A stretch of DNA of 41,116 bases from a virus: the IMG/VR virus record IMGVR_UViG_3300044845_000220, positions 1 through 41,116 of that record; one strand, written 5' to 3'. The notes beneath the pieces are model-generated. The model did not search any database, was not told where the DNA came from, and worked only from the letters and a program-made list of their open reading frames with translations. The position numbers and the translations under genes were made by a program. Below, one piece after another: positions 13,695 to 40,591 of this stretch; position 1 is the first letter of the stretch, and each line of letters opens with the position of its first letter.

Positions 13695-14801
13695 TCAGGC
13701 AAGCAAGGCGGGCAGGGGTTGGGCACGCACATGAGACCAATTGAGGTAGTAGCAGAGCACCTCGGCAATCGTACTGGCAGACTTGCCATTGCGCACGAAG
13801 TCGTGCATCGCGGCAATATCGCGGTCGAGCGCGGCTTTGTAGATGTCTTGCTCATACGAGGACAGGTCTTGCTCACGCGTGAAGGTCGTGATGCTTGGCA
13901 CCCAGTTGTCGAAGATGGTATCAATGGTAGCCATGGGCATGGCCTCGAGACACGCCTCGACCGCCTCCACATCTGCGTCAAACAGATACTCACCAAGCAG
14001 CTCGATGTCCTCCAGGGTCATGGACTCAGCGTCAATCATCTCATCATCGACCCACTCGTAGTCGTCCTCGTTGAACTTGGGGTCGTGCGCTGATACAGAC
14101 GCCTTGCGTGGTGCGACCTCCCCCATGTACATATCGTCATAGATGTCATCGCTGCCCCAGCCGCCATACTTGCCGTAGTTGGAATACCGGCTGGCGTGCT
14201 TGCTAGACGAGTAGTATGTGGGTATCAGGCGTGTGGGTCTCCATGCGTAGGTGTTGCTGAACCACAGCCCATCATGCTCGATGCCTTGGTCGTAGTTGAC
14301 ATGGGACATACGCCCCTCGCCGTCCATGAACACAAAGCGGTTGTCGCCGATGTAGTCAGCAACCATGGTCAAGAACGCTTCGTTGTGGATAAGCGCAGGA
14401 TGGTCATGCACAGGGTCAGCAAGGTAGGTCTTGATGAAGTGCCAAGTGTCAGACTTGGTGGTGTCAGCGGCATTGCCTGTCTTCAACACGCCGTTGTGCA
14501 TCATGGCAACATAGCCAGGGACAACATCGTAGGGGTGGCAGTTGATGAGGTCAGTGTCGCCATGCGTAGTCCAGCGGAAGTGGATTGCCAACTCGCGGTC
14601 ATCGTTGGGCAGCTTGGTGATGAACGCAGTCGCATCGGCTTGGCTCTTGGGCAGAACCTTGACGACCTTCAACCCCTTGGTTGTTGAGTACATGATGCCG
14701 ATACCATCGGGGTTCGATGCGTAGATGTCAGCGATGAGGCCGTTGGTGTCGAGCAGGGTCGAGCGGATTTTGGCAGACTTGCCAGTGATGATGAGACACA
14801 T
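13695..14801 (-). CDS. Class II glutamine amidotransferase-like protein (368 aa)
   Basis: MCLIITG at the start places Cys2 as the N-terminal nucleophile of the class II glutamine amidotransferase (Ntn hydrolase) family after Met removal. Further motifs are NPDGIGIMY (29-37), FRWTTHGDTDLINCHPY (74-90, the RxxTHG and NxHP loop) and MMHNGVL (99-105), all typical of the glutaminase fold. These enzymes release ammonia from glutamine and pass it to a partner synthetase. Residues about 200-250 are a Tyr/Ser/Gly/Asp-rich insertion, and the C-terminal 115 residues are an acidic helical region unlike standard members. The partner is probably the amidoligase immediately upstream (27 bases apart), with a terminator straight after. 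Confidence 0.8.
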   Translation of the reverse strand: MCLIITGKSAKIRSTLLDTNGLIADIYASNPDGIGIMYSTTKGLKVVKVLPKSQADATAFITKLPNDDRELAIHFRWTTHGDTDLINCHPYDVVPGYVAMMHNGVLKTGNAADTTKSDTWHFIKTYLADPVHDHPALIHNEAFLTMVADYIGDNRFVFMDGEGRMSHVNYDQGIEHDGLWFSNTYAWRPTRLIPTYYSSSKHASRYSNYGKYGGWGSDDIYDDMYMGEVAPRKASVSAHDPKFNEDDYEWVDDEMIDAESMTLEDIELLGEYLFDADVEAVEACLEAMPMATIDTIFDNWVPSITTFTREQDLSSYEQDIYKAALDRDIAAMHDFVRNGKSASTIAEVLCYYLNWSHVRAQPLPALLA

Positions 14802-14828
14802 AGTGATTTTTCCTTGATTGTTATTTGA

Positions 14829-16700
14829 TTAAACGCGGTCAACACACAGCAACTCAGCGGGTGCTGAATTCTTGGCGGTAGCACGGCGGCGCACGCCATA
14901 CCAGTCGGCAAGGTTGGGATAGGTGTTGTTGGTGGTACGCAACCACTTGATGAAGCTCGAGTAGTCAAGGTCGCGGTAGCTTGCGACACGGCAGAACATG
15001 ACAGCGGCATGGGTGAACTCGATCTGCGCCAATATGCGCTCACGCTTGAGAGACGAGCGGAAGATGCGAAGCTCGATGGTGTTGAAGCTGCGCTCACCGA
15101 CATACTGCACACCCAAGCGGTCAGCCTCGGAACGCTTCAAGCAGGTCGTGTTGACCATGCGGTAGCGGCGTGTGCTCTTGCTCTTGATAGCGTGCTTGGG
15201 GTTGTCGAGGATGTCTTGCTCTTCTGCCGCGCAGTACTCACGCGCTTGCTTGTCCACAGAGGGGTGGCGACCAGCGATACGGCGAATGAAGTCCACATTG
15301 GTGTTGGAGTTGATGAGCATGAGGAATTTGCCCAGCGTCATTGCCGTGAAGGCACGAGAGTCGATGTGGATGTGCATACCGCAAGAACCTATATCCCAGG
15401 CAGAAAACTGCGCTGGTATGCCTTCGCCGAACCAGTTGCTAAAGCGCGTGATGTGCTCGTCTAGTTTGCGTGGTGCAGTCACGACCTCGAAGCCGCCAGG
15501 GGGCAGCGAACCATCGGACTTGCATACGCAGTAGTCTTCGCCCAGTGCGCCGCGCACAAGCTCAACCGCTGAGCCTACGCTCCCCGATGTTGCCATCTCA
15601 AGCTCGATGCCTATGAGTAGGTCACCGAACGGAGACGGCGTGAAGCTCGTGTCCCTTGCCACAAAGTCTGTGACCACAGTCATGTAGCTCATCAAGCGAT
15701 TGGGTTCCTCCGCAGCGGTGTAGTCGTCATCGTCATCATCGTTCTCTGCCAACTCGGAGTCGCGGTCGTATGAGTAGTACGCGTCCTCACGCTCAGACCA
15801 CATAGCATCGTCTGACTGCCAGTACTCTTCCTGGTCTTCGACCCATACTGCGCGGTCGTCACGGCACGCCGCACACCATGTACGCATACGCCCACCATCG
15901 CGCACCTCAACAGTCTCGTGCGCGGGCACCACATGATCGCAGTAGGTTTGCTCCAGGTTGGTCATGACACCTGCGTCACTCAGCGCTGACTCAATAGCAG
16001 GAAACGCTTCAATCATGCGCTCCATGTGGTAGCCCGTGACGGTGTCTGCAAACCAATCATCGAAATCGCCAGCATCCTGGTCTTTGATTGCTTCGCGCAC
16101 CTTAGCGCCCAACTGCTTGAAAGTGCTACGCATATACACGAATCTTTGCGCGTCAATGCGCACACCCTTGTAGTACGCCGTGGTTTCCCGTGCACGATCT
16201 AGCCCCAGCTTGATGCGTGCGTTGCGTCTGATGCGATCTAGTCGTGCGCCAATCAGCGCGGACTTGCGTCCGTAGAACGGAGAGTCCAGCAAGCCAAGCA
16301 GTCTTTGTTGCACCGCATACCCCTCGTAGTTGAACCATGCACGCTCAGCCCCAGTCAGCGGCTCCACGACATATGACGCCTCGTCAAACGCAACGCTCCA
16401 TGTGTTGTTGTCGATCATGGACTGCATAGCCTCGTCTATGCTGGTGAGTGACAAGACTGAATTCATATCAGAGTAAGAGCGACTGAGCCACGGGGACTCA
16501 ATGCCTGCACTGCGCGTTGCTTCAACGAAGCAGGTGTTCGGGTTGTTGAACAGACAGGCGTTGGATACGCCCTTGATGGCAAGCCACACACGAGTGTTGA
16601 AAGCTTCGGCTACGAACACATGGCGGTGCTTGATGTGGTTGACGTTTGTTGCGTCAAGATCATCGTTAACGAAAGTAAATGTTGCGTGATAGATTCTCAT
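14829..16700 (-). CDS. Amidoligase-family (COOH-NH2 ligase) protein with novel N-terminal region (623 aa)
   Basis: Residues about 360-575 match the amidoligase fold (glutamine-synthetase-like ATP enzyme): GIELEM (364-369), KSDGSLPPGGFEVVTAP (394-410), CGMHIHID (440-447), RRYRMVNTT near 511-519 and TIELRIFRSS (541-550). These hold the expected metal and ATP ligands (two Glu, Asp, His, Glu/Arg). Such enzymes join a carboxyl group to an amine. The first 360 residues match no fold known to me; they include a possible zinc pair (C254/H256 with C276/C279) and a seven-Asp run. ATG at 16700 follows GGAGAATGCA. A product or substrate cannot be named, but a paired GATase suggests ammonia supply or peptide-amide formation. 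Confidence 0.8.
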   Translation of the reverse strand: MRIYHATFTFVNDDLDATNVNHIKHRHVFVAEAFNTRVWLAIKGVSNACLFNNPNTCFVEATRSAGIESPWLSRSYSDMNSVLSLTSIDEAMQSMIDNNTWSVAFDEASYVVEPLTGAERAWFNYEGYAVQQRLLGLLDSPFYGRKSALIGARLDRIRRNARIKLGLDRARETTAYYKGVRIDAQRFVYMRSTFKQLGAKVREAIKDQDAGDFDDWFADTVTGYHMERMIEAFPAIESALSDAGVMTNLEQTYCDHVVPAHETVEVRDGGRMRTWCAACRDDRAVWVEDQEEYWQSDDAMWSEREDAYYSYDRDSELAENDDDDDDYTAAEEPNRLMSYMTVVTDFVARDTSFTPSPFGDLLIGIELEMATSGSVGSAVELVRGALGEDYCVCKSDGSLPPGGFEVVTAPRKLDEHITRFSNWFGEGIPAQFSAWDIGSCGMHIHIDSRAFTAMTLGKFLMLINSNTNVDFIRRIAGRHPSVDKQAREYCAAEEQDILDNPKHAIKSKSTRRYRMVNTTCLKRSEADRLGVQYVGERSFNTIELRIFRSSLKRERILAQIEFTHAAVMFCRVASYRDLDYSSFIKWLRTTNNTYPNLADWYGVRRRATAKNSAPAELLCVDRV

Positions 16701-16751: not shown

Positions 16752-16768
16752 GGGAGAGAGTCTCTCCC
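16752..16768. repeat. Dispersed palindrome GGGAGAGA-N-TCTCTCCC, copy 1
   Basis: A perfect 8-base inverted repeat around one base (G here). It lies three bases after the stop at 16771. A second hairpin (GCCTGT at 16725-16730 with ACAGGC at 16736-16741) follows before the amidoligase ATG. No T-run follows it. Confidence 0.85.
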
Positions 16769-16770
16769 GA

Positions 16771-16974
16771 TTACTGCAAGTGATTTTCAATTTCATTCAA
16801 AATACACATAGCAATGTCTTGCTGGTTCAGCACCAGTGCGCCCTGCACCTGGATAACTAAGTCGAGCAAGCGTGCGCGTTCAGCGTCAGCCAGGGCTGAC
16901 TGCGCGTCTTCTCTGTCGATCAGGTCTTGGTACGCGTCCATGACCGCGTAGTGGTGTGCGTCTAGTCCTTTCAT
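16771..16974 (-). CDS. Helical hypothetical protein (67 aa)
   Basis: The chain is almost wholly helical (HHYAVMDAYQDLIDREDAQS, then RARLLDLVIQVQGALVLNQ) with no catalytic motif. It overlaps the 59-residue gene upstream by ATGA and ends just before palindrome copy 1. It is the last gene before the amidoligase/GATase pair. Function is unknown. Confidence 0.6.
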   Translation of the reverse strand: MKGLDAHHYAVMDAYQDLIDREDAQSALADAERARLLDLVIQVQGALVLNQQDIAMCILNEIENHLQ

Positions 16975-17150
16975 GTTGTCTCTCCTTGTGTTGCTTCGTT
17001 AACCAGCTTGTGTGCTAGGTTCAGCGTCATCGTAGCCACCAACATGGCGATGGCTTTCTCTGACCCGCTGAATCGCTCGCAGTACGCCATTAATTCATCG
17101 AGTGAATCGGGCGTGGCTACAAAGCCTGTCTTTGGTATCGGGTTCTTCAT
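16971..17150 (-). CDS. 59-residue hypothetical protein
   Basis: ATG at 17150 follows GGAGAAAGCAA. The chain starts MKNPIPKTGFVATPDSLDEL, and a hydrophobic helical part follows (EKAIAMLVATMTLNLAHKLV). That part could be amphipathic or weakly membrane-seeking. It overlaps both neighbours by ATGA and is just below common length cut-offs. Function is unknown. Confidence 0.6.
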   Translation of the reverse strand: MKNPIPKTGFVATPDSLDELMAYCERFSGSEKAIAMLVATMTLNLAHKLVNEATQGETT

Positions 17151-17341
17151 TTGCTTTCTCCTTCGGGTTCATATGCGTGGCAGCGTGCGGCAATGTCTCG
17201 GCAATCCCGGTCTGCTTTGATGTTTTCTTCCGTATTCATGGATGGTGTTGGTGCTACCCGCCTGCCATTTACTGGACAGACAAGTTCGACACGATGAGCC
17301 CCACTTTGTCGAGAGTGGGCGCAGTTTCTACAAGATTTCAT
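17147..17341 (-). CDS. Small Cys-rich (zinc-ribbon-like) protein (64 aa)
   Basis: It begins MKSCRNCAHSR, with more Cys at 22, 47 and 54 (LVCPVNG, DRDCRD, ARCHAYEP). This is a plausible zinc-binding arrangement like small phage zinc-ribbon proteins. GGAGAAAGCAA precedes the ATG at 17341. It overlaps both flanking genes by four bases. Function is unknown. Confidence 0.65.
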   Translation of the reverse strand: MKSCRNCAHSRQSGAHRVELVCPVNGRRVAPTPSMNTEENIKADRDCRDIAARCHAYEPEGESK

Positions 17342-17523
17342 TTGCTTTCTCCTTCACTGGTTATGTGTGTCACGCTGGGTTCTTCGCCCCAGCACCCTTG
17401 CCCCTTCTCCATCGCTCTGTGCGCTTGGCGTATTGCCTGCTGTTTGGCGCTGTGTTCGTCATCTGCCTCGACTTCCACATCGGCGTAGTACGACAAGCGC
17501 ACCTGTACTGTGTATCGATTCAT
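17338..17523 (-). CDS. Small phage protein with EVEADDEHSAKQQA motif (61 aa)
   Basis: It starts MNRYTVQVRLSYYADVEVEA with a long helix after it. Proteins with a short strand pair and a VEVEADDExxAxxxA helix recur in phages and bacteria as small unknown domains. GGAGAAGTGAA precedes the ATG. It overlaps the zinc-ribbon-like gene by ATGA. Confidence 0.65.
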   Translation of the reverse strand: MNRYTVQVRLSYYADVEVEADDEHSAKQQAIRQAHRAMEKGQGCWGEEPSVTHITSEGESK

Positions 17524-17535
17524 TTCACTTCTCCT

Positions 17536-17712
17536 TCAAAAGTTACACGGCTCGTGCACAAACAAACCCTCTACTGGCAATTCAACCAATTCAGTCGCAA
17601 GCTGTTGTGCTCTGCGCAGTCTTGCTGCCGCTCTGTATCTCGCACACTTACGCCTGAATTCATGGTGTTTCATCAACGCTAGGTGATGCTGCTTTAGCTT
17701 TCTTACTTTCAT
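17536..17712 (-). CDS. Small basic protein (58 aa)
   Basis: The start at 17712 follows AAGGAGAAAGCAA and is preferred to an upstream start at 17775, which lies in another gene. The first 40 residues are dense in Lys, Arg and His (KVRKLKQHHLALMKHHEFRR), which points to nucleic-acid binding. The rest is helical with a short hydrophobic tail. Function is unknown. Confidence 0.6.
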   Translation of the reverse strand: MKVRKLKQHHLALMKHHEFRRKCARYRAAARLRRAQQLATELVELPVEGLFVHEPCNF

Positions 17713-17723
17713 TTGCTTTCTCC

Positions 17724-17969
17724 TTACTGTTGAACAATGAATGTGTCTACTGGTGCGGGCAGCACCTCTTTCCACTCTGGGTACACCAGCACCATGAGGG
17801 CATACTCGGGGACATCCTCGGCGTGGTCAGACCCAACGAAGTTGAAGTCGTACTCATCCCAAGACACCCACTCATCAACACCCTTGATGGACTCGCCTGT
17901 GTGTTCGTCATACAGAGCGCATCGCAGGTAGCCCTCGGCGAAGGCGACCATTTCTTCTTTCGTTTTCAT
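17724..17969 (-). CDS. Acidic hypothetical protein (81 aa)
   Basis: It starts MKTKEEMVAFAEGYLRCALY and is acidic and aromatic (WVSWDEYDFNFVGSD) with a Pro-rich end. ATG at 17969 shares ATGA with the upstream gene. No recognised domain. It could be a small inhibitor or anti-host protein, but nothing in the sequence shows this. Confidence 0.6.
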   Translation of the reverse strand: MKTKEEMVAFAEGYLRCALYDEHTGESIKGVDEWVSWDEYDFNFVGSDHAEDVPEYALMVLVYPEWKEVLPAPVDTFIVQQ

Positions 17970-18226
17970 TGCAGTTCTCCCACATCAACCTCATAGATGG
18001 GGTTGCAGAACTCGACCACGAACTCGCGGTGTTCGCCCACGATGCGCTCGTCTTCTCCGAACACATAGAAGATGTCGTTGTGGAACCCCAAGCTGCCCTT
18101 GACACCTTCCAATATGTCTGTTGCCATCGAGTCCGTGGCAGCGTTGGGCATGACCACACAGCGGCGCTCAAACCGCTTGTGGTCGTCTTTCCAATAGCCC
18201 TCAATACAGATAACTTTCGCTTTCAT
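17966..18226 (-). CDS. Hypothetical protein (86 aa)
   Basis: The chain (MKAKVICIEGYWKDDHKRFE at the start; FVVEFCNPIYEVDVGELQ at the end) looks like a small alpha/beta protein. AAAGGGGAAACGAA precedes ATG at 18226. It overlaps the next gene by ATGA and follows the 62-residue gene by 13 bases. Function is unknown. Confidence 0.6.
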   Translation of the reverse strand: MKAKVICIEGYWKDDHKRFERRCVVMPNAATDSMATDILEGVKGSLGFHNDIFYVFGEDERIVGEHREFVVEFCNPIYEVDVGELQ

Positions 18227-18239
18227 TTCGTTTCCCCTT

Positions 18240-18428
18240 TCAATAAATTTCAGTCACACGAAAGTCGCCAGCGATTACATCGCCCAGACTCAGCGGCTCG
18301 CCGTCGGTGTAGTAGAAGATGTTTCGGTCTTCTTCTGTCTCTTGCCCATCCCATGAGCCAAGCGAAACAAGCACCGAATACTCGATGGTGGGTAAGTCCA
18401 ACCAATGTCCACGAACATTTACTATCAT
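18240..18428 (-). CDS. Small hypothetical protein (62 aa)
   Basis: ATG at 18428 follows a GGAGGAAAAGCAA site, so it is preferred to the upstream reading from 18599, which would cross the palindrome and overlap the next gene. The chain starts MIVNVRGHWLDLPTIEY and is beta-rich and acidic. It follows palindrome copy 2. Function is unknown. Confidence 0.6.
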   Translation of the reverse strand: MIVNVRGHWLDLPTIEYSVLVSLGSWDGQETEEDRNIFYYTDGEPLSLGDVIAGDFRVTEIY

Positions 18429-18491
18429 TTGCTTTTCCTCCAGGCTATGGTGAAAGCTGTGCGCGGCGTAGCCCAATGCCGAGTACAGCGT

Positions 18492-18508
18492 GGGAGAGAA
18501 TCTCTCCC
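18492..18508. repeat. Dispersed palindrome, copy 2 (central A)
   Basis: Perfect GGGAGAGA-A-TCTCTCCC in the 109-base gap between the 219-residue gene (stop 18538) and the 62-residue gene (start 18428). TGACACCCGTCA lies near it at 18523-18534, a sequence also present at 13686-13697. Confidence 0.85.
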
Positions 18509-18537
18509 GTGAATGTTTCCCCTGACACCCGTCAAGG

Positions 18538-19197
18538 TCACAGTCCATGCCATGTTGTTGGCACAGGTTCGCCCATGGGCAGACGCTTGATGGTGTCAAG
18601 CGCTTGACTGATTTGCTCTATGCGGTCTTTGTCCCCCTCGGTCTGCGCCCGCTCCAGGTCTTTGGTCGTGCGCCTGAGTAGCCTGTCCCTTTGCTTGTTG
18701 TGCAGGATGGCGGGCACTGTCCGCTCAAATGGGCGCTTGCGCTTTGCTCGTACTACAGGCGGTATGGCATCGAACAAGGCAATCACGCGTTCCCTGATGT
18801 GAGACGGCACATGGTCGCACCAGTGCGTGCGCTCGGGGTTCAACTGCATGGGTGTTTGAGATTTTTCCCTCTTGAGTAACTCAAGCTTGCCGCGCAGTGT
18901 GTCGAGCACCTGGATGTAGGCTTGCAAGGCAAGCGTGCGGGCATCCCCAGATTTTGCCGCTTTGTAGCCCAGCATGGAGCGCACGACCTTGCGCTCGTGC
19001 ATGAGCGGCGCAATGAATTCCCCCCAGGTGTGGTCAAGCTGGCGCTTGTGTGCGCGTTGTGCCTTGAGATTTTTCCGCATTTCACGCACTTGCTCTTTCA
19101 CCAGCTCGACCGCTTCGGGCGAGTCGTACCGCTTGCTCAGTGCGTTGTGCAAGTCGCGCTCACTCATTTGGGTGTAGCTCGATAGTCCTTTTGGCAT
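18538..19197 (-). CDS. Basic helical protein of unknown function (219 aa)
   Basis: The start MPKGLSSYTQMSERDLHNAL at 19197 follows AAAAAGGACACATC. An earlier reading from 19266 would run into the inverted repeat. The chain is rich in Lys and Arg with long helices (VREMRKNLKAQRAHKRQ near 33-49; RLLRRTTKDLERAQTEGDK late). That suggests nucleic-acid binding. It is the first gene downstream of the candidate origin on this strand, so an initiator or origin-binding role is worth testing, but no replication-initiator motif is seen. Confidence 0.6.
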   Translation of the reverse strand: MPKGLSSYTQMSERDLHNALSKRYDSPEAVELVKEQVREMRKNLKAQRAHKRQLDHTWGEFIAPLMHERKVVRSMLGYKAAKSGDARTLALQAYIQVLDTLRGKLELLKREKSQTPMQLNPERTHWCDHVPSHIRERVIALFDAIPPVVRAKRKRPFERTVPAILHNKQRDRLLRRTTKDLERAQTEGDKDRIEQISQALDTIKRLPMGEPVPTTWHGL

Positions 19198-19239
19198 GAT
19201 GTGTCCTTTTTCGGTCTGTAAGTATCCATGATTAGAGCA

Positions 19240-19315
19240 ACTTTCCCCCCGTTTGGACAGTTGCAAGTGCTTGATTGTACGCGGGTATGCGCTGTACTGT
19301 CCACTCTATCTATCT
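19240..19315 (+). repeat. Left arm of interrupted inverted repeat
   Basis: Conserved blocks in order: ACTTTCCCCCCG, TGGACA, AAGTGCTTGATT, ACTGTCC, then CTATCTATCT. The same blocks occur in reverse complement and in mirror order at 19450-19525, with gaps of 2, 5 and 19-20 bases matching in both arms. Confidence 0.8.
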
Positions 19316-19340
19316 GTTTGGGAAGTGCACTATAGCAAAT

Positions 19341-19357
19341 GGGAGAGAGTCTTTCCC
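19341..19357. repeat. Dispersed palindrome, copy 3 (one mismatch)
   Basis: GGGAGAGA-G-TCTTTCCC lies between the two arms of the inverted repeat. It has one T in place of C in the right half. Confidence 0.75.
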
Positions 19358-19449
19358 GCTAACTCATGCCAGGTTTCTCAAGCTGATAAATCCGGCAATT
19401 CTGAACGCGCACGAGTACACATCTCTATATCTATATCTATATAAATATA

Positions 19450-19525
19450 GATAGATAGATAGGACAGTGTGTGCCCACGCTGTATATGAATCAAGCACTT
19501 ACGCTTGTCCACGCGGGGGGAAAGT
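19450..19525 (-). repeat. Right arm of interrupted inverted repeat
   Basis: Reverse complement of the left arm in blocks: AGATAGATAG, GGACAGT (19462), AATCAAGCACTT (19489-19500), TGTCCA (19506), CGGGGGGAAAGT (19514-19525). Bases between the blocks differ from those in the left arm, so the blocks, not the spacers, are conserved. Confidence 0.8.
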
Positions 19526-19561
19526 GCATCTAATCTGGGATAGCTATTTTTTGCTTAAAAA

Positions 19562-19777
19562 CTAGGCAGTTTGTGCACTAAGTTGGTGCGGAATGGGTAC
19601 TCCGATGGATTCGAGGTAGTTGGCGCAGACTTCTGCGCTTGTGTGAAGGCGTGCTTCACGCCCTACGCAGGTCTCCCACATCTGGACTTCGCGCCAGCGT
19701 TTGCCGCCCCGCTCAAGGCAGGGGATGTAGGACTTGATGACCACTCCGTTGATGGTCAGGTTGGTGTGCTTTTTCAT
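19562..19777 (-). CDS. Small hypothetical protein (71 aa)
   Basis: ATG at 19777 follows AACTGGAGAAGCAAC, the ribosome site used by several genes here. The chain (MKKHTNLTINGVVIKSYIPC; then a basic RGGKRWREVQMWETC) is basic at its centre with two Cys. It ends at the edge of the candidate origin and might bind it. This is a guess from position and charge only. Confidence 0.6.
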   Translation of the reverse strand: MKKHTNLTINGVVIKSYIPCLERGGKRWREVQMWETCVGREARLHTSAEVCANYLESIGVPIPHQLSAQTA

Positions 19778-19794
19778 GTTGCTTCTCCAGTTGC

Positions 19795-19811
19795 GGGAGA
19801 GAATCTCTCCC
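19795..19811. repeat. Dispersed palindrome, copy 4 (central A)
   Basis: Perfect GGGAGAGA-A-TCTCTCCC in the 94-base gap between the 47-residue and 71-residue genes, just upstream of the AACTGGAGAAGCAAC ribosome site. It could pair in the mRNA leader. Confidence 0.85.
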
Positions 19812-19871
19812 AGGGTTCTGCAAGGCGCAGGGTTGCCCAGCAAGCACAGCACGCTGTGCTTGCGGAGGTTC

Positions 19872-20015
19872 CTACAGTTCTCCACCTGCGAGGAAGGCAA
19901 GGAGGGTGTCGCTGTCCACGAATTCGCCATCGAGGGCTTGTTCGTGTGCCGCATCAAAGAAGGTGTCGTGCGTCTCGAGGACGCACAGGTAGGGGTTGTT
20001 TTTGTACAGGGGCAT
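19872..20015 (-). CDS. 47-residue acidic protein
   Basis: ATG at 20015 follows TTGGAGAATCAA and starts MPLYKNNPYLCVLETHDTFF. The end (DGEFVDSDTLLAFLAGGEL) is acidic and helical. A longer reading from 20057 would start before the ribosome site. Function is unknown. Confidence 0.5.
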   Translation of the reverse strand: MPLYKNNPYLCVLETHDTFFDAAHEQALDGEFVDSDTLLAFLAGGEL

Positions 20016-20093
20016 TTGATTCTCCAAGTAGCGGACAGGATAGTCCCCACAGCACACCCTTGTGGGATGCGCTGTAAGAATTCCCGTTGGACA

Positions 20094-20125
20094 GGAAAAG
20101 AAACAACGGCGCAGGACGCCGTTGT
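20094..20125 (-). terminator. Rho-independent terminator after the 151-aa gene
   Basis: On the minus strand a 9-base stem (ACAACGGCG / CGCCGTTGT) around a TCCTG loop is followed by TTCTTTTCC. It lies about 25 bases after the stop at 20150 and just past palindrome copy 5. A half-site GTTGGACA (20086-20093) follows its tail. Confidence 0.75.
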
Positions 20126-20130
20126 CGCTT

Positions 20131-20146
20131 GGGAGAGAATCTCTCC
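20131..20146. repeat. Dispersed palindrome, copy 5 (last base differs)
   Basis: GGGAGAGA-A-TCTCTCC followed by G instead of C. It begins three bases after the stop at 20150 and lies just before the terminator stem. Confidence 0.8.
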
Positions 20147-20149
20147 GGA

Positions 20150-20605
20150 TTACTCGAAGGTGATCTGAGACAAGGCGCGATCAACCAAGGCGTTGATCTG
20201 CTCACGGGTCATCCCCGCAAACAACTTGACCGCCTGCTCAACCTTGACCTTGGGCACAGCCACACGAGCGTGGCTGGGAGACTCTGGCGCCTGGGTGGAC
20301 TCCGCCCGAACGATGTGGTACTTGAATGAGTTGCTTGCTCGGTAGTACACAGCCTGCTGGTCTTTGGTGCGGTCATCCCTGCTCTGGGAGAGAATCTCTC
20401 CGGCTTTCTTCTCCGACACCTTCAACGCCCCGATGAATGCGTTGAGCATCCACTCGGTGCGGTAGGCTGTCTGCCCCTCGGCGTTAAGCTTTTGGTAGTG
20501 CTTGTGGAAGGGGCGTGTGGCTTCCTCCAACAGACGATCCTCACCCTTCTGCTTGGCGGCAAGGCGTTGGCTGAACACAGCCATAGTTACTTTCGATTGG
20601 TTCAT
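20150..20605 (-). CDS. Hypothetical protein, first gene of the leftward arm (151 aa)
   Basis: ATG at 20605 follows AACTGGAGAAGCAAC. The chain is basic at the start (MNQSKVTMAVFSQRLAAKQK), helical in the middle and ends in KVEQAVKLFAGMTREQINAL with an acidic tip. It is the most promoter-proximal credible gene on the minus strand next to the divergent region, the usual place for an early regulator, but no HTH is clear. Palindrome copy 6 lies inside the gene and encodes GEILSQS. Confidence 0.6.
   Translation of the reverse strand: MNQSKVTMAVFSQRLAAKQKGEDRLLEEATRPFHKHYQKLNAEGQTAYRTEWMLNAFIGALKVSEKKAGEILSQSRDDRTKDQQAVYYRASNSFKYHIVRAESTQAPESPSHARVAVPKVKVEQAVKLFAGMTREQINALVDRALSQITFE
20386..20401. 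repeat. Dispersed palindrome, copy 6 (inside a gene)
   Basis: GGGAGAGA-A-TCTCTCC, followed by G. It is translated as part of the 151-residue protein, so the DNA or RNA form has been kept inside coding sequence. Confidence 0.8.
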
Positions 20606-20717
20606 GTTGCTTCTCCAGTTAAGTTAAGGAATGTCTCCAGGGTTTCCCCCTCGGACACTTTCAGTATCACATGACGGGGTTTAAAACATGGTCTGGAGCC
20701 ACCCCCTGAACCCCACC

Positions 20718-20882
20718 CTACCCCCACCAACCCATATATAAACAAGCCATACTAGCCAGCCAGAACACTATTCCCCAGCCATAAACCAATCTTTTGTAAT
20801 ACTTACCCACTACCCCCATAAATTTTTTAAAAAATTCTACAAAACCCTTGTCCAACGATTGACAGGGGGGTATACTGCGCAT
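20718..20882 (-). CDS. Doubtful small membrane protein (54 aa)
   Basis: A frame from ATG at 20882 to TAG at 20718 ends in a Trp-rich hydrophobic helix (YGWGIVFWLASMACLYMGWW). No ribosome site precedes either possible ATG (20882 or 20819). The frame crosses the promoter on the other strand. The membrane helix is the only argument for it; chance is equally possible. Confidence 0.2.
   Translation of the reverse strand: MRSIPPCQSLDKGFVEFFKKFMGVVGKYYKRLVYGWGIVFWLASMACLYMGWWG
20848..20876 (+). promoter_or_regulatory. Sigma70-like promoter for the structural operon, with operator-like site C
   Basis: TTGTCC (20848-20853), a 17-base spacer and TATACT (20871-20876, five of six -10 bases). The spacer and -35 contain the operator-like motif TGTCCAACGATTGACA (20849-20864), the reverse complement of the pattern at 2913 and 13102. 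Transcription would begin near 20883, giving a leader of about 165 bases before the first ribosome site. Confidence 0.6.
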
Positions 20883-21123: not shown

Positions 21124-21775
21124 CCCCATCGCAGGTTCAAGGGCTTATGCGCGTATGCTGGATCATTTAATAGATTTCTCCCCCGAGGTGAGTACTCACC
21201 AAGGGAAGACTGTTGCCGTAAACAAACTGTCCCCGGCAGATTTGGTGGACGCCAAAATAAAAACCACAGACTGGCTCAAAGGTTTGGGGGCGGTGGATAC
21301 CGATGCGGCTGTGGCGCAGGCAGAGATTGACGCAGCCAGGGCGTCTTTCAACGGCATGATTACTGCGGCTCCAGCAGAGATCACCCACAAACATTTGGCA
21401 CAGATAAAAACCCCCGCGGCGGTGCAGCATCTGGTTGGGATGTTGTCTGCATACGACTGGGAGTTTGTGGAACGCGCCAAAGAGATTCGGGGCTACACCG
21501 TGGCCAAACTGTTGGAAGAAGCAGAGAACCCCAACGCCAACATCCGCCTGAAGGCGCTCGGTCTTTTGGGAAAAATCACGGAAGTGGGCCTGTTCACCGA
21601 CAAGATCGAGGTCAAGAAGGAGTCTCTGAGCGACGACGAGATCGACCAGAAGATCAAGGACAAGCTCAACAGGTTCATGGGCGTCGCAGACGCTGCTGTG
21701 ATCGAAGACATAGAAGTTAGCACTCACACACATACGGCTGATGAAGCTCAACGACCTGACGCTCTCCCCAACTGA
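21113..21775 (+). CDS. terS: Terminase small subunit (220 aa), GTG start
   Basis: Position directly before the large terminase and the C-terminal NIRLKALGLLGKITEVGLFT segment (about 139-158) followed by EVKKESLSDDEIDQKIKDKL fit phage small terminase proteins that bind DNA and load the packaging motor. The N-terminal part (SRAYARMLDHLIDFSPEV) would hold the DNA-binding helices. The only in-frame early start is GTG at 21113 with a weak site; ATG at 21155 also lacks one. Coupling with the leader ORF explains the weak start. It overlaps the large subunit by 35 bases. Confidence 0.75.
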   Translation: MYISPIAGSRAYARMLDHLIDFSPEVSTHQGKTVAVNKLSPADLVDAKIKTTDWLKGLGAVDTDAAVAQAEIDAARASFNGMITAAPAEITHKHLAQIKTPAAVQHLVGMLSAYDWEFVERAKEIRGYTVAKLLEEAENPNANIRLKALGLLGKITEVGLFTDKIEVKKESLSDDEIDQKIKDKLNRFMGVADAAVIEDIEVSTHTHTADEAQRPDALPN

Positions 21776-37435: not shown

Positions 37436-40400
37436 ATGGCACTTGTAGTAAAAGACAGGGTACAGGAAATAACGGGAACCACTGGGACGGGTACTGTTAC
37501 GCTTAATGGGGCGGTTCTTGGGTACCAGTCGTTTTCCACCATTGGCAACGGTAACACCACGTACTACACCATTGTTGACCTGACCGCAGGTGACTGGGAA
37601 GTTGGTATTGGTACGTACACTTCGGCAGGCCCAAGCCTGTCCCGTACCACAGTGCTGTCCTCCAGCAATGCAGGTTCGTTGGTTTCCTTTGGCGTTGGCA
37701 CAAAGAATGTCTTTGTAACCTACCCATCTTCGCGGTCGGTTTATTTGAGCGCGGCTGGGCTGGCTGTTGACGTTCTCGACATCGGCACACTGGGCACCAG
37801 CACGGCCAACATCAGCACGGCCAACATCACTGCGGGAACAGTTTCTACAACCCCGGTTAACAACACAGACATTGTCAACAAACAGTACGCCGACGCCATT
37901 GCGTCTGGCATCCACTTCCACGAAGCTGTGGATTTGGCGACTACCACAGCGCTACCAGCAAACACATACAACAACGGCGCATCTGGGGTGGGGGCAACGC
38001 TCACGGCAAACGCCAATGGCGCTTTGTCTGTGGACTCAACCCTCACAGTTGTTTCAAACCGGATATTGGTGAAGAACGAAGCCGCGCAAGCAAACAACGG
38101 TGTGTACACGGTCACGCAGGTTGGCTCTGCGGGAGCACCATACATTCTGACTCGGGCAACCGACTTTGATACCGTTGGAACCGGAGTTGACCAGATCGAC
38201 GAGGGTGACTTTTTCTTGGTAACCAGCGGCACAGCAAATGTTAACACCGCTTGGGTACAACAGACCGCGCCCCCTATAGTTGTTGGCACAACCGCGATTG
38301 TTTTCCAGCAGTTTTCTGCGCCCATCACTTACACCGCAGGGACGGGGCTGTCTGAATCCCCCACCTACACGTTCAACATTGCCACCACAGGTGTTACAGC
38401 GGCTACCTACGGCACGGCAAGTTCTGTCCCGGTCATGGCGATCAACGCCCAGGGCCAAGTCACTACGGCCACCAACACAGCCATTGCCATCGCTGCTGGG
38501 GCGGTGTCGGGTCTTGCAGCTTCAGCCACTACGGACACGACCAACGCAAGCAACATCTCATCTGGCACGTTGGGAACTTCGAGACTCAGCGGTTCTTACA
38601 CGGGAATTACTGGAACCGGAGCGCTTGCTGCGGGTTCATTGGCTACAGGTTTTACGGCAGTGTCTGCTCCTCTGGGCGGCACTGGACAGACATCCTACGC
38701 TGTGGGAGATTTGTTGTATGCGGATACAACGTCTTCTCTGGCCAAACTCGCAGACGTAGCAGTTGGCAATGCCTTGATCTCTGGTGGCGTGGGCGCAGCC
38801 CCAAGCTGGGGCAAGGTTGGTCTGGCCACGGCAGTAAGCGGCACCCTCCCAATTGCCAACGGCGGCACAAACTCCACGGCGACGGCGACAAACGGGGGTG
38901 TTGGATACGGTACGGGTACGGCCCATGCGTACTCAGTGGCGGGCACCTCCGGGCAGGTTTTGCAAAGCAACGGGGCAGCAGCCCCCACTTGGCTTGCCCA
39001 GTCCAGCATTGCAGCAGGTTCGGCTACCAACGCCACTTTTGCTTCGTCCGCAACCAATGCAACTTTCGCAAGCTCTGCTACCAACGCGACATTGGCCACT
39101 ACGGCTACGCTTGCGACTCTGGCGACGCTTGCTACCCTGGCCACTACGGCCACCAATGCAGGCGCAGCCACCAATGCAGGTTTTGCCACCAACGCCACTT
39201 TTGCTACCAGTGCAGGATCGGCTACCAACGCAGGCGCGGCTACCAACGCAACTTTTGCCACATCGGCAGGTTCAGCCACCAACGCCAGCGCAGCCACCAA
39301 CGCAGGCTTTGCCACTAACGCAACAAACCTAACATCAACCCAAAGTAACTGGGCCACAAACGGAACAGTCTCAGCGGTTGTCGGTCAGTTGGCGTGGAAG
39401 AACTACGGAAATAACCACGTTATCTTTGACGCTTCCAACAGCACAAGTCCGAGCGGTACGGCGGTAAGTAACACTAACGCCACTTATCCTTGGTCAGGCA
39501 CTCATCCCACTTTAATGGGGTGGAACGGCGCTAATACATATGGGATTCGTGTGGACTCTGCACGCGTTGCCGACAGCGCATCTTCAGCCACCAATGCAAC
39601 TTTTGCTTCATCAGCCACCAACGCAACTTTTGCTTCGTCCGCTACCAATGCCAGCGCAGCCACCAACGCAGGGTTTGCCACCAATGCAACTTTTGCAACC
39701 ACTTCAACCAACGCAACAAACGCAACATACTTAAACACAAGCAGCCCAATCTATCGTTCCGCCGCAGGCGCGGGGTATTTGAACGGGCAATACAGTTCTG
39801 GCATTGAAACCGTCTCAACCTCTGGAGCAATTTATTCAATTGGCGGCGCTTACGTCCCAGGCACGACAACTCTTGGAAATATGTATGGCATTGGGTATAC
39901 CTATACCGGTTCGGGGCGCGCAGTTGGAAACCCCGCAGGAGCGCCATCTGATCTTTGGGGTCTGTATGGCGCATCCGGCGGCACGGCACGATGGTTCTTG
40001 GACTCCGACAATGGTCGCGGGTATTTTGCTGGCAACCTGTATGTAGTTGGCGGAAACCAAGTTGTTTACAACTCTGGCACTTGGGGTATCAGCATTTCAG
40101 GCTCGGCTGCTTCCGCCACCAACGCAGGTTTTGCCACCAACGCAACCTTTGCGTCTTCAGCCACCAACGCAACCTTTGCGTCTTCAGCCACCAACGCAAC
40201 TTTTGCTTCATCAGCAAGTTCAGCCACCAACGCAACCTTTGCGTCTTCAGCCACCAACGCAACCTTGGCAACCTTGGCCACGACTGCAACCAACGCAGCT
40301 AAAGCATGGGTTAACTTTAACGGCACCACATCACCTGGAACCATCCGCGCACAATTTAACGTAAGCAGTGTGACGCGCAATGGCACAGGTGATTACACAG

Positions 40401-40591
40401 TTAATTTTTCTAGCGCATTGGCGGACGCAAACTATGCGTGTGTGATTACTGGCGAAAATACGACTTTTAACAACAGCTATACCTGGGTTGCAGCAGGGGG
40501 CACGCAAACGGCGTCTGCGGTACAGATGCTGAGTGTAGGGGGCGCGGGTTTATTTAACAGCGCTCGTATGAACGTAGCTTGTTTCAGATAA
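37436..40591 (+). CDS. Long tail fibre protein with hexa/nonapeptide repeats (1051 aa)
   Basis: The N-terminal region (about 1-100) is beta-rich. Residues about 150-290 form a fibre domain with HFHEAVDLATTTALPANTYN and VSNRILVKNEAAQANNGVYT. Three repeat arrays (about 529-632, 715-762, 892-955) use ATNA and SSATNATFA units, and a C-terminal head (VSSVTRNGTGDYTVNFSS) is a receptor-binding end domain known in other tail fibres. The gene holds repeats in the DNA, so its length may vary. AAGAGGCACAA precedes the ATG. It would bind the host surface. Confidence 0.8.
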   Translation: MALVVKDRVQEITGTTGTGTVTLNGAVLGYQSFSTIGNGNTTYYTIVDLTAGDWEVGIGTYTSAGPSLSRTTVLSSSNAGSLVSFGVGTKNVFVTYPSSRSVYLSAAGLAVDVLDIGTLGTSTANISTANITAGTVSTTPVNNTDIVNKQYADAIASGIHFHEAVDLATTTALPANTYNNGASGVGATLTANANGALSVDSTLTVVSNRILVKNEAAQANNGVYTVTQVGSAGAPYILTRATDFDTVGTGVDQIDEGDFFLVTSGTANVNTAWVQQTAPPIVVGTTAIVFQQFSAPITYTAGTGLSESPTYTFNIATTGVTAATYGTASSVPVMAINAQGQVTTATNTAIAIAAGAVSGLAASATTDTTNASNISSGTLGTSRLSGSYTGITGTGALAAGSLATGFTAVSAPLGGTGQTSYAVGDLLYADTTSSLAKLADVAVGNALISGGVGAAPSWGKVGLATAVSGTLPIANGGTNSTATATNGGVGYGTGTAHAYSVAGTSGQVLQSNGAAAPTWLAQSSIAAGSATNATFASSATNATFASSATNATLATTATLATLATLATLATTATNAGAATNAGFATNATFATSAGSATNAGAATNATFATSAGSATNASAATNAGFATNATNLTSTQSNWATNGTVSAVVGQLAWKNYGNNHVIFDASNSTSPSGTAVSNTNATYPWSGTHPTLMGWNGANTYGIRVDSARVADSASSATNATFASSATNATFASSATNASAATNAGFATNATFATTSTNATNATYLNTSSPIYRSAAGAGYLNGQYSSGIETVSTSGAIYSIGGAYVPGTTTLGNMYGIGYTYTGSGRAVGNPAGAPSDLWGLYGASGGTARWFLDSDNGRGYFAGNLYVVGGNQVVYNSGTWGISISGSAASATNAGFATNATFASSATNATFASSATNATFASSASSATNATFASSATNATLATLATTATNAAKAWVNFNGTTSPGTIRAQFNVSSVTRNGTGDYTVNFSSALADANYACVITGENTTFNNSYTWVAAGGTQTASAVQMLSVGGAGLFNSARMNVACFR
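39020..39330 (+). repeat. Fibre repeat array 1 (ATNA units)
   Basis: DNA repeats of GCCACCAACGCA-like units, mainly 18-base spacing with 27-base units at the start, coding for ATNAGF, ATNATF and ATSAGS. Long, near-identical blocks make slippage possible. Confidence 0.8.
39580..39720 (+). repeat. Fibre repeat array 2
   Basis: About five units of SSATNATFA and ATNASA type, with DNA very close to array 1. It lies between non-repeat parts that may form shaft or collar segments. Confidence 0.75.
40111..40300 (+). repeat. Fibre repeat array 3
   Basis: About seven units, several being near-identical 27-base copies that encode SSATNATFA. It lies just before the C-terminal head domain. Confidence 0.8.

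Follow-up and report, generated by a model that had tools for sequence, protein, structure and literature searches.

The 41,116 bp of viral DNA described here (positions 1 to 41,116 of IMG/VR record IMGVR_UViG_3300044845_000220; hereafter the window) contain six near-identical 17 bp palindromes in an early region of leftward genes, together with the gene for the protein that very probably recognizes them. This is gene 1 (20150-20605, minus strand), the first leftward gene, which encodes a 151-aa putative cognate DNA-binding protein; the assignment draws on co-variation, prediction tests and structure prediction. Comparisons among related phages leave little doubt that gene 1 is paired with the type of site that a phage carries, and the palindromes are probably operators of an autoregulatory early-gene repressor, the gene 1 product, with many of them acting as roadblocks; for this role we infer direct binding, dimerization and repression. 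Judged by its sequence, gene 1 appears to be a new and unannotated protein family, in a system of an already known kind.

The palindrome GGGAGAGANTCTCTCCC is present six times in the window, each copy with one mismatch or none, as recorded in a preliminary description made from the sequence alone. That description had seen no copies elsewhere, and none is found in the window even if three mismatches are allowed; the number expected by chance has a mean of 0.07 and a maximum of 1 (100 dinucleotide shuffles). Three copies are perfect 17 bp palindromes, two are perfect across 15 bp, and the copy at 19341 has one internal mismatch. The left arm of the window is filled with leftward genes, and the right arm contains the gene for the terminase large subunit (terL), with its start at 21741. 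Site 1 (GGGAGAGAGTCTCTCCC, 16752-16768) is directly 3' of the stop codon of a conserved 67-aa leftward open reading frame (ORF) and 51 nt before an amidoligase-like gene, and site 2 (GGGAGAGAATCTCTCCC, 18492-18508) is in a gap separating leftward ORFs. Site 3 (GGGAGAGAGTCTTTCCC, with one mismatch, 19341-19357) lies between the arms of an inverted repeat, and site 4 (also GGGAGAGAATCTCTCCC, 19795-19811) is in a gap, directly before the ribosome-binding site of a leftward ORF whose start is at 19776. Site 5 (GGGAGAGAATCTCTCCG, 20131-20147) is just past the gene 1 stop codon, and site 6 (20386-20402), with the same sequence, is within gene 1, ~205 nt downstream of its start. The contexts given earlier (gaps after genes, an inverted repeat and a coding region) thus hold copy by copy. 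Neighboring sites are 250-1700 bp apart and form no array. The block recurs, with the identical six sites and no seventh, in the nearest relative, G001 (64.6 kb).

Relatives were defined as loci with a related terminase in public viral contigs, mostly from freshwater metagenomes, and any repeated palindrome upstream of terL was sought. Most loci with enough upstream sequence contain one family of 3-6 exact palindrome copies, as against 1-2 in shuffled sequences. In the corresponding early region each related phage has its own set of palindromes, 4-7 in number and near-identical, with a sequence and half-site spacing that vary by phage. The motif types include GGAGAGN3CTCTCC (the window), GGAGAGN4CTCTCC, GAGAGAN4TCTCTC, CAGACAN3TGTCTG, GTGGTCAATTGACCAC, GTGGACN5GTCCAC, GGGACAN3TGTCCC, CGGGTCACNGTGACCCG, ATTCAGNCTGAAT and GGGGGTN6ACCCCC, and there are more than 20 distinct site codes across the group. 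In 19 genome records the sites are located from -9 to -0.85 kb of terL, with the exception of one imperfect match. A matrix of cross-occurrences is essentially diagonal, such that a phage carries its own type, and what overlaps there are fall mostly between closely similar motifs. The center of the palindrome is variable between copies and the arms are fixed. That each related phage carries a motif of its own sequence could not be seen by a reader of the window alone.

The site type follows gene 1. Phages with the CAGACA motif have a first leftward gene in common (40-89% identity) that the window-motif phages lack, and in an all-against-all comparison terL similarity points the opposite way to this grouping. 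Across 54 phages, motif similarity is correlated with similarity of the gene 1 N-terminal part (Mantel r=0.64, P=0.0005, where Mantel P values allow for shared descent incompletely); controlling for terL leaves the correlation at 0.63, and a dereplicated set of 36 phages gives 0.54. Given the N-terminus, the C-terminal module is uncorrelated with motif similarity (r=-0.01). Three other genes were considered as the binder and rejected: a terS-like gene, a 242-aa gene and a 244-aa helix-turn-helix-like gene correlate with the motif at 0.43, 0.44 and 0.25, and these values fall to 0.005, 0.13 and 0.04 when gene 1 is taken into account.

The pairing also has predictive value. New loci were collected by the gene 1 protein alone, those already used were removed, and the motif was taken from the nearest known N-terminus. 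Where N-terminal similarity is at least 0.5, the predicted motif is present at three or more copies in 38 of 39 unseen phages, most of which are of the GGGTCA type; for random library motifs the figure is 3.5%. In seven loci with similarity below 0.5 the predicted motif is absent, and most of these have a new palindrome family (AGTATCN5, CTGACAN3, GTGGAGN4). Protein and sites appear to have changed together, and the site sequence of an unseen phage is therefore predictable from its protein. The 151-aa protein was among the candidates listed in the preliminary description, and both the correlation and the 38 correct predictions point to it; the suggestion that a dimeric regulator may bind at the palindromes has strong support.

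Comparisons between close relatives provide natural swaps. The window and G017 are alignable (~87-90%) over most of the block, except for the N-terminal two thirds of gene 1. At all five shared site positions the flanks are conserved and the center of the palindrome is expanded, by 1 bp in G017 and by 3 bp in another near relative, G015, within DNA that is 85-90% identical; these concerted changes in spacing have small departures at single copies. The orthologues of site 1 are altered in both genomes, and site 3 is absent from both. A third relative, G016, is 93.5% identical to the window from just before terL onward, and its block from -8.0 to -1.0 kb, including gene 1 and all of the sites, is almost wholly non-homologous.

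The gene 1 protein contains an N-terminal specificity domain (approximately residues 1-105), a linker and a C-terminal helical module, and its counterparts across the group (123-155 aa) are each composed of the same three parts. Profile comparisons connect types A2 and A3 (probability 97), A2 and A4 (92), and A1 and A4 (96, via the C-terminal part), with no link between A1 and A3. Searches of gene 1 against Pfam and PHROGs gave no match of note. AlphaFold models of the gene 1 proteins are of middling confidence, and that of the CAGACA type has the order helix-helix-helix-beta hairpin-helix, which is winged-helix-like as read from the order of its elements, with no database match.

Among named phages there is no near DNA match to the window and no relative of gene 1, whether of the window or the GCAGAC type. 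Planktothrix phage Pag-Yong1 (terL 44%) has 37 copies of GGTTCAGNCTGAACC at two or fewer mismatches, 19 of them in gaps in a genome that is ~92% coding, and many are 3 nt past a stop codon and 21-28 nt before the next start. The product of its first leftward gene, UMO76074.1, has its C-terminal module in common with gene 1 (E=1e-9). A sensitive search of HTVC023P, 023Pt, HTVC027P and DSL-LC04 identified no comparable palindrome family, with two-copy repeats in DSL-LC04 and HTVC027P. Dispersed GCTTGAA-type repeats are present in a gap region of HTVC027P (L192) at about -3.9 to -2.7 kb of terL, and the leftward genes gp33 and gp34 of this pelagiphage have a distinct early-middle expression pattern (PMC12753301).

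The positions of the sites are informative as to what they may do. All 54 phages measured have a site 0-9 nt past the stop codon of gene 1 (a count biased by the choice of candidates, as noted below); three phages in which this site was located only afterwards, L067, L069 and L125, conform to the pattern. In 27 phages a second site falls within gene 1, in 15 it is 16-38 nt before the start of the gene and in 10 it is 93-128 nt before it; two of the 54 have none nearby. Among the remaining sites, 40% follow a leftward stop codon by no more than 10 nt, compared with 4.7% for random positions. Aligned leaders suggest a gene 1 promoter ~60-90 nt before the start, for which the predicted -10 element in the window is GATACT (20663-20668, minus strand), placed by comparison with TAnAAT/TATACT in the relatives; most second sites (42/54) would therefore be in transcribed DNA. 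The palindromes themselves are not followed by a T-run, in agreement with the earlier view that they do not look like terminators, with the refinement that an intrinsic-terminator-like hairpin (20102-20126, minus strand) comes directly after site 5. Its sequence varies and its pairing is kept in G017 and G015, and across the group such a hairpin is found behind the gene 1 distal site in 16 of 47 phages, compared with 2 of 161 of the other sites.

Other elements are seen around the start of gene 1. In L063, L065 and L074 the leader of gene 1 contains a terminator-like stem (CCCCGCC..TGCGGGGTTTTT) directly ahead of the start region, which suggests attenuation. Between gene 1 and the terS-like gene is a G-rich element, GGGTTGGTGGGGGTAGGGTGGGG (20711-20733, minus strand), a possible G-quadruplex that is retained in nearly all relatives inspected and could be a packaging or promoter element. 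There is also a single-copy near-palindrome, GAATAGTGTTC (20763-20773, minus strand), present as GAACANTGTTC in many relatives; unlike the operators, its sequence is constant across types.

We envisage that early in infection gene 1 would be transcribed from a leftward promoter of its own, and that a dimer of its product would bind the dyad-symmetric operators in DNA, with the N-terminal domain setting both the sequence and the spacing recognized. As it accumulates, the product would occupy one site within or close to its own gene, another behind its own stop codon and more behind other early genes, and so block its own transcription and that of the leftward early operon, largely as a stoperator-like roadblock to elongation. 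Protein and sites would be inherited and diversify jointly, so that co-infecting relatives of other types would escape regulation and the block would act as an immunity-type specificity module; it is from this that we infer specificity in superinfection. Lysogeny is not indicated, because 15 relatives have no match to the tyrosine integrase domain (PF00589; serine integrases were not searched) or to ParB_N (PF02195; control genomes were positive), with the reservation that the records are perhaps incomplete, and because the more distant relative DSL-LC04 is predicted to be virulent (PMC10611076). This, along with the positions of the sites, favors an early-gene shut-off regulator with type-private operators. 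Two genome scans for a host yielded no usable candidate. We put forward more tentatively, as a doubtful possibility, that this large group of aquatic phages has an immunity-type specificity system without lysogeny, built on a fast-diversifying regulator with swappable N-terminal recognition domains and private operators for each, in which the early genes of same-code newcomers would be shut off and those of others would not.

Several points weigh against a repressor. Gene 1 candidates were chosen partly by nearness to a site, which biases the 54 of 54 count, though not the prediction test, and fold searches with gene 1 gave no trusted match, the weak rows being MarR/IscR-like at Z 2-4. In 10 of 54 phages the promoter-proximal site is 93-128 nt ahead of the start, a position that would suit activation as well as repression. 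What a phage would gain from many roadblocks and diversified codes is also hard to see without a visible lysogenic state.

The gene 1 product could instead be an activator or timing factor of early or middle leftward transcription, to which the same evidence of pairing applies, as does the placement of a site upstream of the predicted gene 1 promoter in those 10 phages. We consider this unlikely, since the second site comes after the predicted promoter in 42 of 54 phages, as far as ~205 nt into the gene, and other sites are often directly behind a stop codon, positions that fit a block and not activation; in Pag-Yong1 the common 21-28 nt interval before the next start leaves no space for an intervening promoter. 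Action of the sites in RNA, as intercistronic hairpins subject to processing or to binding by a translational regulator, is in keeping with their location between cistrons and near stop codons and ribosome-binding sites. Three observations, however, point to recognition at the level of DNA: arm mispairs on the leftward transcript are A.C in 11 cases and G.U in only 3, so that they tend to disrupt an RNA hairpin, the arms are fixed and the center varies, and copies within a genome have in common an exact sequence that a plain stem would not need. The mRNA processing stems suggested earlier are thus disfavored, and any RNA-level role seems very improbable.

A role in replication or partition, with the sites as iteron-like or centromere-like elements and gene 1 encoding the initiator or segregation protein that binds them, has its own attractions. 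Lambda O binds palindromic iterons located in its own gene, and a site lies within the gene of the putative binder in 27 phages. The block also contains an origin-like inverted repeat (left arm 19223-19276, right arm 19489-19542, plus strand; 54-nt arms, 80%, separated by 212 nt), a possible replication origin. Most relatives have this repeat too, between -2.7 and -1.9 kb of terL, and in many phages a site falls inside it or close by. The spacing of the sites in the window is nonetheless not that of an array, the origin-repeat copy (site 3) is missing from that repeat in two near relatives, no ParB_N was found in the 15 relatives, and the 37 sites of Pag-Yong1 are spread genome-wide. Of the earlier suggestions, origin sites therefore look weak and partition sites, for which the dispersal also counts against them, are disfavored; we regard this explanation as a whole as improbable. 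Finally, multiple near-identical copies and the exchange of an entire block between close relatives could reflect self-spreading repeats or recombination boundaries of gene cassettes. This is hard to credit when the type is predicted by a single protein domain, when orthologous sites change in place with their flanks conserved, and when some have fixed positions inside coding sequence. An autoregulatory early-gene repressor remains the reading we prefer.

Among the other genes of the window, a small terminase subunit is a less likely identity for gene 1, as the 220-aa gene before terL weakly matches a Pag-Yong1 protein read as small-subunit-like, a reading that Pfam did not confirm. An amidoligase-like gene adjoins a class II glutamine amidotransferase-like gene (13695-16700, minus strand), and a 1051-aa ORF (37436-40591, plus strand), in which imperfect short repeats (ATNAxxA-like) form a long array, probably encodes a fiber protein.

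An unannotated gene and an anonymous repeat can thus be read as a matched protein-site pair in common and hardly studied aquatic phages. The natural series of more than 20 specificities, with clear domain swaps, makes a protein-DNA recognition code directly testable, and why phages without visible lysogeny genes diversify their operator specificity becomes a testable question.

The arrangement can be placed among described phage systems. In cluster K mycobacteriophages the SAS elements are 13 bp, asymmetric and tied to translation starts, part of them with 17 bp inverted repeats (PMC3203893). The sites described here are likewise short repeated elements at gene junctions, but their association is with stop codons and with a single variable protein. 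The immunity repressor of cluster A phages (L5/Bxb1) has many dispersed stoperators, in promoters and short intergenic spaces, with a consensus that differs among subclusters and tracks repressor distance, and an N-terminal DNA-binding domain; the L5-type sites are 13 bp, asymmetric, monomer-bound and oriented with transcription, at 20-30 per genome in temperate phages (PMC9283540, PMC6550527). Here too the sites are dispersed and their consensus varies with the N-terminal domain of the putative binder. They are, however, near-perfect dyads, at 4-7 per genome in one early block, gene 1 gave no trusted match to a described family, and the 15 relatives yielded no tyrosine integrase; given the differences in symmetry, in the number of sites, in protein family and probably in life style, we do not classify the window as a cluster A member. 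The operators of lambda Cro and CI are 17 bp odd-centered dyads, three adjacent to one another at each promoter, through which an early product shuts off early transcription, and type-specific immunity blocks are exchanged between lambda relatives. The window resembles lambda in its 17 bp odd-centered dyads, in the exchange of the block between relatives and, if gene 1 encodes a repressor, in an early product that would turn off early genes, and differs in that its sites are single and scattered behind genes, with no CI/Cro switch identified. The phiC31-type repressor has dispersed inverted repeats of ~17 bp, mostly intergenic and distributed over the genome, and phiC31 is a temperate phage. 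The sites of the window are also dispersed inverted repeats, mainly intergenic, and Pag-Yong1, with its 37 sites, is closer to the phiC31 pattern than the window is.

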